Source: Sorex araneus | Lineage: Eukaryota > Chordata > Mammalia > Eulipotyphla > Soricidae | NCBI RefSeq assembly: GCF_027595985.1 | Contig: NC_073306.1 | Coordinates: 160,786,197-160,850,196, forward strand | DNA: 64,000 nt | Direction of reading: 5' to 3' | Shown: in pieces, positions 27,640 to 62,601 of the stretch | Layout of the letters: every line of letters starts with the position of its first letter | Numbering within the stretch: the first letter of the stretch is position 1 | Translations under genes and position numbers: made by a program | The notes under the pieces: generated by a model | Databases searched by the model: none | Told to the model about the DNA's origin: nothing | What the model saw: the letters and a program-made list of their open reading frames with translations, nothing else

Positions 27640-27748
27640 ACCATGGCTCCTTGGCCCGAGCTGCAGAATGCCCAGGCGAACCCCAGTACATACATCGAAG
27701 GGGGTCCCCAGGCCCCCGTGACCCAGAAAGGCAAGGAACCCAACAAAA
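27640..27748 (+). CDS. SLC34A2: SLC34A2 copy A exon 2 (first coding exon)
   Basis: Acceptor ACCTACAG, then ACC ATG G with the start at 27643, and donor GTAAGT at 27749. Encodes residues 1-35 of the cytoplasmic N-terminus and ends in phase 1. An upstream in-frame ATG at 27487 lies before the acceptor and is not used in this model. Confidence 0.93.

Positions 27749-62601: not shown

Follow-up and report, generated by a model that had tools for sequence, protein, structure and literature searches.

The question raised by this locus is how many SLC34A2 genes a shrew carries, how old they are, and how much of each has remained distinct. SLC34A2 encodes NaPi-IIb, which transports phosphate in the intestine and the lung alveoli and is a target for drugs and antibodies. 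The window, by which we mean the whole stretch of 64,000 nucleotides of Sorex araneus DNA that was analysed (C5:160786197-160850196), contains two intact 12-exon SLC34A2 genes, copy A on the plus strand and copy B on the minus strand, arranged tail to tail with their stop codons approximately 6 kb apart. Exons were found by local tblastn, and splice borders were set by hand. The initial annotation had described twelve-exon sets on opposite strands that share the same phases and are open throughout, and the rebuilt gene models confirm this, with 27643 and 62601 as the start codons. The models are as follows; A exon 6 draws also on the site table and A exon 12 on the tail count.

27643..41403, plus strand: copy A, canonical SLC34A2 (NaPi-IIb), start to stop codon; 689 aa, identical to P0004
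27643..27748, plus strand: A coding exon 1 (ATG)
27837..27965, plus strand: A coding exon 2
28630..28758, plus strand: A coding exon 3
29948..30091, plus strand: A coding exon 4 (first QSSS motif)
31691..31802, plus strand: A coding exon 5
34482..34677, plus strand: A coding exon 6 (Asp224/Asn227 equivalents)
36003..36098, plus strand: A coding exon 7
36696..36816, plus strand: A coding exon 8, which we take to encode an extracellular loop
37897..38064, plus strand: A coding exon 9
38261..38377, plus strand: A coding exon 10 (second QSSS motif)
38476..38600, plus strand: A coding exon 11 (GSNIGTTTT)
40777..41403, plus strand: A coding exon 12, with the cysteine-rich tail and stop
47391..62601, minus strand (reads 62601 to 47391): copy B, the other SLC34A2 gene, lacking the cysteine-rich tail segment; 666 aa, identical to P0001
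62496..62601, minus strand: B coding exon 1 (ATG)
62279..62407, minus strand: B coding exon 2
61481..61609, minus strand: B coding exon 3
60438..60581, minus strand: B coding exon 4
59499..59610, minus strand: B coding exon 5
54769..54964, minus strand: B coding exon 6
53992..54087, minus strand: B coding exon 7
53513..53633, minus strand: B coding exon 8
52409..52576, minus strand: B coding exon 9
50599..50715, minus strand: B coding exon 10
50384..50508, minus strand: B coding exon 11
47391..47948, minus strand: B coding exon 12 with stop; the exon is shorter than in A by 69 nt

Copy A comprises 689 codons plus a stop and copy B 666 codons plus a stop, with no internal stop in either. All introns are of the GT-AG type (11 of 11 in each gene), and the end phases match exon by exon. 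Exon lengths are equal in 11 of 12 cases, the exception being exon 12, which is 627 nt in A and 558 nt in B. Because the translations are letter-identical to P0004 (A, named 'sodium-dependent phosphate transport protein 2B' of Sorex araneus) and P0001 (B, '2B-like'), both genes are already in public annotation.

Several repeats lie in the same window. A long AC/GT dinucleotide tract is present in intron 2 of both A (28038-28103) and B (62153-62210), and intron 11 of A holds an AAAG microsatellite of 154 bases (39925-40078). A short interspersed repeat, probably a shrew SINE to judge from its sequence, occurs in many copies and in both orientations (33666-33840, 45742-45921, 49000-49174, 55788-55962, 56511-56685, 58721-58881 and others); the copies listed here are 73-83% identical to the one at 33666.

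The cluster extends beyond the window. The genome of S. araneus (2.41 Gb) was searched with P0006, the C-type protein of Sorex fumeus, which returned 51 matches that include the exons of A and B, matches on C2 and C1, and a further set.

C5:160881788-160896323, plus strand: copy C, third SLC34A2 set; splices to an intact 666-aa protein identical to P0002

The order is thus A+ B- C+: A and B converge tail to tail, whereas B and C lie head to head with start codons 33 kb apart. No further SLC34A2-like exons were found in the 133.8 kb read around the cluster, in which 1706 bases are N. The matches on the other chromosomes, C2 and C1, show last-exon identities of 58% and 50% to the C-type query, and they are probably SLC34A1 and SLC34A3, which belong to the same family. 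The description of two full sets therefore holds within the window and fails chromosome-wide, where a third set lies 33 kb further on, and what had been called a second phosphate transporter is one of three intact copies. We regard it as highly probable that Sorex araneus carries a three-gene SLC34A2 cluster in which each gene encodes a full-length NaPi-II protein, the duplications are old, and gene conversion has overwritten short stretches. The literature searched yielded no account of a duplicated mammalian SLC34A2 or of a shrew SLC34A2.

Assemblers err at inverted near-identical stretches, and a haplotype duplication or misjoin could in principle underlie this arrangement. Such an artefact is extremely improbable: A and B differ in residue at 136 of 666 aligned codons (about 100 residue differences had been estimated initially), A has 23 residues that are absent from B, and the introns are mostly unalignable. 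Moreover, the assemblies of other species hold the same types, because a B-type protein is found in Suncus etruscus and A and C types are among the proteins listed for Sorex fumeus, both on 19.25 Mb contigs that are presumably one. The early judgement that an assembly duplicate was unlikely is upheld.

The identity between copies is patchy beyond chance. The syntenic alignment of A and B has 440 mismatches in 4838 columns. Its longest identical run spans 298 columns of a single block, or 303 when a 144-base gap is bridged, whereas 2000 permutations of the columns gave a maximum of 137, and the variance of mismatches among bins is 19.3, compared with at most 7.1 after permutation. Per exon, dS ranges from 0 (exon 11) to 0.61 (exon 7), and over all 666 codons NG86 gives a dS of 0.229 and a dN of 0.127. 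Because the identity forms a patchwork, which the initial annotation did not note, such overall dS or residue counts cannot date the duplication. The following stretches stand out.

36817..37896, plus strand: A intron 8, putatively the principal tract of conversion with B; no mismatch in the initial 280 sites, followed by 636/655 identical
52577..53512, minus strand: B intron 8, partner of the A intron 8 tract
31352..31844, plus strand: A exon 5 tract, from the last part of intron 4 through exon 5 into the first part of intron 5; identity to B is 94.9% in 495 columns, and C is similar
59456..59947, minus strand: B partner of the exon 5 tract
27599..28791, plus strand: A from a short 5' flank to just past exon 3; identity to C is 98-100% in intron 1 and in exons 1-3

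In contrast to intron 8, the introns of A and B cannot be aligned over much of their length. Exon 5 is alike in all three pairs of copies (98-99%). Across exons 1-3 and intron 1, where C and A are nearly the same, B is 79-97% identical to A. For exon 11, A and B are the closest pair (98.4% versus 93.6%); they have no synonymous differences in its 35.8 synonymous sites, and the exon is likely to be another conversion tract. The last exon of C appears chimeric, in that its first 120 bases equal those of A exactly (40, 40 and 40 of 40 per step), while from base 240 it equals B at 39-40 of 40 per step and at the last 38 of 38. Exon 12 of B and C is 97.1% identical overall, and 317 columns of the 3' flank are 93.1% identical. 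All pairs of A, B and C have diverged in exons 6 and 7 (dS 0.33-1.85), which therefore provide a better guide to the age of the copies.

A tree of exons 1-3 likewise places paralogues within a species closer together than orthologues in converted segments. In this tree, the S. araneus copy A pairs with C (support 83) and Condylura copy 2 with copy 3 (100), and the two hedgehog copies do not resolve. We infer from these patterns that gene conversion produced the mosaic of A, B and C. Because the copies stay side by side, in both inverted and direct orientation, conversion would keep rewriting short tracts, namely the 5' exons, exon 5, intron 8, exon 11 and the 3' end of B and C.

Two smaller observations concern the introns. 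The 144 bases of A intron 8 that B lacks (37097-37240) were considered as a transposon insertion, and this was rejected because there is no convincing target-site duplication (6 bases only). In intron 5, a stretch of approximately 250 bases is 88% identical between A (33155-33407) and B (57980-58230), the rest of the A/B intron aligns in short or repeat-like pieces only, and a separate part of B intron 5 is 95.5% identical to C across 176 bases.

Exons 8 and 9 flank the near-identical intron 8 and are themselves only 86.0% and 89.9% identical between A and B. Mismatches number 34 in 289 exonic sites versus 19 in 935 intronic sites (p=1.4e-10). Within the two exons, synonymous and nonsynonymous rates do not differ (p=0.52), and each exceeds the divergence of intron 8 (synonymous p=9.8e-6, nonsynonymous p=3.8e-8). 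Because synonymous sites are also above the intron, the exons were spared as a whole, with the tract stopping near the exon edges. Selection that removes or limits conversions erasing coding differences would leave intron 8 more alike than the adjoining exons, and we propose that selection against converted exons explains why exons 8 and 9 escaped homogenisation. Alternatively, the tract may have ended there by chance, or a different donor may have converted the exons afterwards.

A single recent, Sorex-specific duplication would dispense with gene conversion if the patches of identity were conserved sequence and the exons evolved fast under positive selection. The low overall dS between A and B and a dN/dS of 0.86 in exon 12 are what that history would lead one to expect. 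However, much intron sequence is unalignable while intron 8 is 100% and then 97% identical, dS varies widely among exons, and the elevation over intron 8 in exons 8-9 extends to synonymous sites. Together with the chimeric exon 12 of C and the presence of B in Suncus etruscus, these observations make a recent single event very unlikely.

With conversion as the preferred explanation of the mosaic, the coding sequences can be considered for what each copy may do. All three belong to the SLC34 family according to PF02690 (Na_Pi_cotrans), which matches two stretches in each (110.5, 111.5 and 96 bits for A, B and C; cut-off 29.1), and TIGR01013 (655, 627 and 593 bits; cut-off 306), and they are 80-83% identical to each other over the core. 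Copy B matches solved Slc34a2a chains, for example 9z60. Among its best 120 listed matches, all functionally named entries are 2B, 2b or member 2, the others being unnamed, 'hypothetical' or 'unnamed protein product', and by these listed matches B is closer to SLC34A2 than to SLC34A1 or SLC34A3.

The part of PMC6325988 available to us places the modelled Na1 site of NaPi-IIa at Thr200, Gln206, Asp209 and Asn227 and the Na3 site at Gln417, Ser418, Ser419, Thr451 and Thr454, and from it we also take the role of Asp224 in electrogenic NaPi-II proteins. Judged by these sites, copies A and B retain all modelled Na1 and Na3 residues, the Arg210/Asp224 pair and both QSSS motifs, and 20 of 20 positions in our site and motif table are conserved in both. 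The Asp224 equivalent is present in 44 of 44 aligned rows, including A, B and C. In the shrew C copies, two of the modelled residues are replaced (Asn227Ser and Thr451Ala), and their changes further include His223Asp, Ser420Phe, Asn448Ser, and Gly450Ala or Ser. Mole copy 3 has His223Asp, Asn448Ile and Thr451Ser, with QSSN in place of the first QSSS. His223Asp, a changed Asn448 and a changed Thr451 are each present in four rows, which are shrew C and mole 3, and in no other of the 44.

A cysteine-rich C-terminal tail is a hallmark of NaPi-IIb. The last 110 residues contain 20 cysteines in A, 4 in B and 4 in C, compared with 15-21 in 19 other placentals and 8 in the turtle Emys, and the 23 residues missing from exon 12 of B include most of this tail. 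Copy A has the tail and B and C do not, so B is filed here as a derived SLC34A2 paralogue and not as a typical mammalian NaPi-IIb. The cluster thus resembles mammalian SLC34A2 in its family profile, in both QSSS motifs and GSNIGTTTT, and in the Asp224/Asn227 equivalents of A and B, and differs from it in having three adjacent copies, in the loss of most of the cysteine-rich tail from B and C, and in the altered ion-site residues of C. On this evidence, A would be a working, canonical electrogenic Na+/phosphate cotransporter, and B very likely works like A at the ion and phosphate sites. With the cysteine-rich cytoplasmic tail mostly gone, B is probably targeted to the membrane or regulated differently from A. 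We read the changes in C as suggesting that coupling has been altered or lost.

Purifying selection on the A/B pair is clear in the unconverted exons. In exons 3, 6, 7 and 10, there are 43.5 synonymous differences in 128.2 sites and 46.5 nonsynonymous differences in 408.8 sites (Fisher p=1.2e-8); this is a pairwise test of A against B, and the B branch is not isolated by it. For exons 3, 6 and 7, dN/dS is 0.27. At this pairwise level, the result agrees with the original proposal that selection has kept the inverted duplicate open. Departures from conserved residues, meaning those that are the same in at least 9 of 11 mammals within residues 79-605, number 16 in A, 62 in B, 68 in C and 58 in Suncus B, which implies that B and C have evolved faster.

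The region upstream of A contains a likely promoter, predicted from the following features.

16129..17600, plus strand: candidate promoter region of A; shared element plus CpG-rich stretch, with the promoter and exon 1 readings putative

The element at 16129-16702 recurs in the same orientation upstream of C (88807-89433 in joined coordinates), with 84.9% identity over 628 columns. The CpG-rich stretch at 17001-17600 includes TATATATA (position 17318) and, at 17372, a GTGAGT that resembles a splice donor. Upstream of B, no counterpart of this promoter-like region was found at E 1e-4, so B may use a different promoter from A. As a separate matter, P0010, an A-type protein of 690 aa whose contigs are no longer than 3.7 kb, is 88% identical to Sorex fumeus A; it is perhaps a transcript of another shrew and hints at A-type expression.

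The missing promoter counterpart, the lost tail segment and the many departures from conserved residues would fit a B (and C) that is open yet unused, either silent or slowly decaying. Nevertheless, this seems unlikely. B has an open frame with GT-AG splice sites across 12 exons, and its dN against A is below dS in the unconverted exons, in the pairwise comparison only. In Suncus, the B frame is open across the 527 core sites aligned, and its 90.3% identity to Sorex B is similar to the 91.1% core identity between the A-type P0010 and Sorex A.

To place the duplications in time, 44 proteins were chosen for trees from the 130 listed. Each listing is the best 120 of thousands, and because entries stand for 90% clusters and species lists are incomplete, a missing copy is no evidence of absence. 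Within these lists, extra SLC34A2 copies occur in all three groups of relatives in which the initial annotation had suggested looking for a second gene, namely shrews, moles and hedgehogs. Condylura has three (P0055, P0101 and P0125), Talpa two (P0053 and P0083), and the hedgehog also two, P0077 and P0030, of which the latter is flagged low quality. The B proteins of Sorex and Suncus etruscus, which both have 4 tail cysteines, form a clade with support of 100 in the core tree (exons 4-11) and 100/100 with exons 4, 6 and 7, so B predates the split of these two shrew lineages. The proposed lineage-specific origin of the duplicate accordingly fails in its narrow sense, and moles and hedgehog have extra copies, some of which share rare states with B. 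The duplications are old, given that exons that look unconverted have a dS near 0.4-0.6 or more and that B is older than the Sorex/Suncus split.

How much older depends on how the trees are read. The core tree unites the mole copies (91), the hedgehog copies (93), and Sorex A, B and C with Suncus B (81), the last group lying beside P0010 and, oddly, armadillo. This grouping is compatible both with independent duplication and with old copies that have undergone conversion. Whole-core trees were therefore rejected for dating, because converted segments can force paralogues together. In the tree of exons 1-3 (from which CondylA, the partial P0125, and five non-placental rows were left out), the shrew copies join (99), the Sorex copies join (97), and mole 2 and mole 3 join (95), as conversion predicts.

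Shared rare states give a different view of the same proteins. For these counts, the outgroups exclude Nyctic2, Trichechus2, Loxodonta1, Pipist2, Thomomys2 and five non-placental rows. Which of two copies counts as 'second' was our choice, the labels mole 2, mole 3 and hedgehog 2 were set after the sequences had been seen, and the p values for shared deviants are nominal. Across 317 near-invariant columns, shared deviant positions number 6 for shrew B and hedgehog 2 (0.9 expected), 4 for shrew B and mole 2 (0.2 expected), 7 for shrew C and mole 3 (2.0 expected), and only 2 for mole 2 and hedgehog 2 (0.4 expected, p 0.058). The mismatched pairs share 3 (shrew B and mole 3, 1.0 expected), 2 (shrew C and hedgehog 2, 1.9 expected), 2 (mole 3 and hedgehog 2, 1.7 expected) and 3 (shrew C and mole 2, 0.5 expected, nominal p=0.009). 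Rare residues exclusive to a pair number 6 for shrew C and mole 3, 4 for shrew B and hedgehog 2, only 1 for shrew B and mole 2, and 0-3 for the remaining cross pairs of extra copies. With exons 4, 6 and 7 (five non-placental rows left out), a tree constrained to a clade of shrew C and mole 3 has a log-likelihood 4.15 above that of the free search and the B group one 0.33 above, whereas mismatched groups are 0.92 and 10.04 below. None of the AU tests of the B and C clades for these exons was significant (p 0.17-0.70).

SLC34A2 may instead have been duplicated independently in shrews, moles and hedgehogs, with the shared rare residues convergent at positions freed by a spare copy. The within-group joins of the core tree are what such a history predicts, shrew B and mole 2 share just the one exclusive residue, and in some other mammals the second copy groups with its own lineage (Nycticebus 95, Pipistrellus 93, and Thomomys 100/85 in the exon 4, 6 and 7 tree). 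Gene conversion would give the same grouping, as the joins in exons 1-3 illustrate, and the gains in likelihood (with AU tests that reject nothing) and the excess of shared deviants in the matched pairs point the other way. Independent duplication is therefore possible, if doubtful, and an ancestral eulipotyphlan cluster is somewhat more likely, but no more than that. B and C probably existed in an early eulipotyphlan, which is less certain than the age of B within shrews. In the fullest version of this ancestral reading, which we put forward tentatively as one that could well be right, a cluster of a canonical A, a tail-less B and an ion-site-altered C arose in the ancestor of shrews, moles and hedgehogs and persisted. 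Conversion would have refreshed the 5' exons, introns and tails while each transport core kept its identity, and C would have changed Na+ coupling, a changed substrate or a non-transport role.

Mammals had been assumed normally to carry a single SLC34A2, and the proteins listed include several annotated exceptions, so a single gene is not universal. Second SLC34A2-like proteins are listed for Nycticebus (P0008/P0021), Trichechus (P0057/P0071), Thomomys (P0032/P0086), Pipistrellus (P0078/P0087), Dromiciops (P0091/P0106) and Loxodonta (P0070/P0072). The copies of Nycticebus, Pipistrellus and Thomomys pair within their own lineage, the Dromiciops pair does not resolve in the tree, and those of manatee and elephant are intermingled, a pattern suggestive of an older duplication common to both. 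Extra copies tend to have fewer tail cysteines, with 7 in Nycticebus 2, 9 in Pipistrellus 2, 9 in Thomomys 2, 8 in Dromiciops 2, 4 in hedgehog 2, 10-14 in mole copies 2 and 3, and 13 in Trichechus 2, as against 15-21 in the placental comparison (n=19). The two Loxodonta copies, with 15 each, break this trend, and gene-model errors are possible in extra copies.

Adjacent paralogues with patchwork conversion, in which introns are more alike than exons, are familiar from RHD/RHCE and the red and green opsins. The shrew cluster shows the same patchwork in a different family, that of transporters, and in A+ B- C+ order. Fish slc34a2a and slc34a2b both occur in one animal and are likewise NaPi-IIb paralogues that have been kept; the shrew copies are adjacent and appear to exchange sequence. 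BMP8A/B, DDX19A/B and TUBG1/2 are described, in the part of PMC2720389 available to us, as long-lasting concerted gene pairs for which selection for homogenisation was proposed. As in the shrew, these are old duplicates that in part resemble each other more within a species than across species, and in which at least one intron has been homogenised. They are pairs and not a triplet, however, and in the shrew the coding parts stay different beside the homogenised intron.

Duplicated transporters and patchwork conversion are thus known kinds of phenomena, and their combination in NaPi-IIb was not found in the literature searched. A mosaic three-gene cluster is more interesting than one spare gene. 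It clearly exemplifies homogenised gene ends and a homogenised intron alongside a coding core of which much is still different, and it is a warning that whole-protein SLC34A2 trees can make old paralogues look young. The high metabolic rate of shrews makes the physiology of the cluster worth asking about, as a question only. A mammal with three diverged neighbouring copies also offers a natural experiment on where the protein tolerates change, in which B tests the cysteine-rich tail and C tests the Na+ sites.
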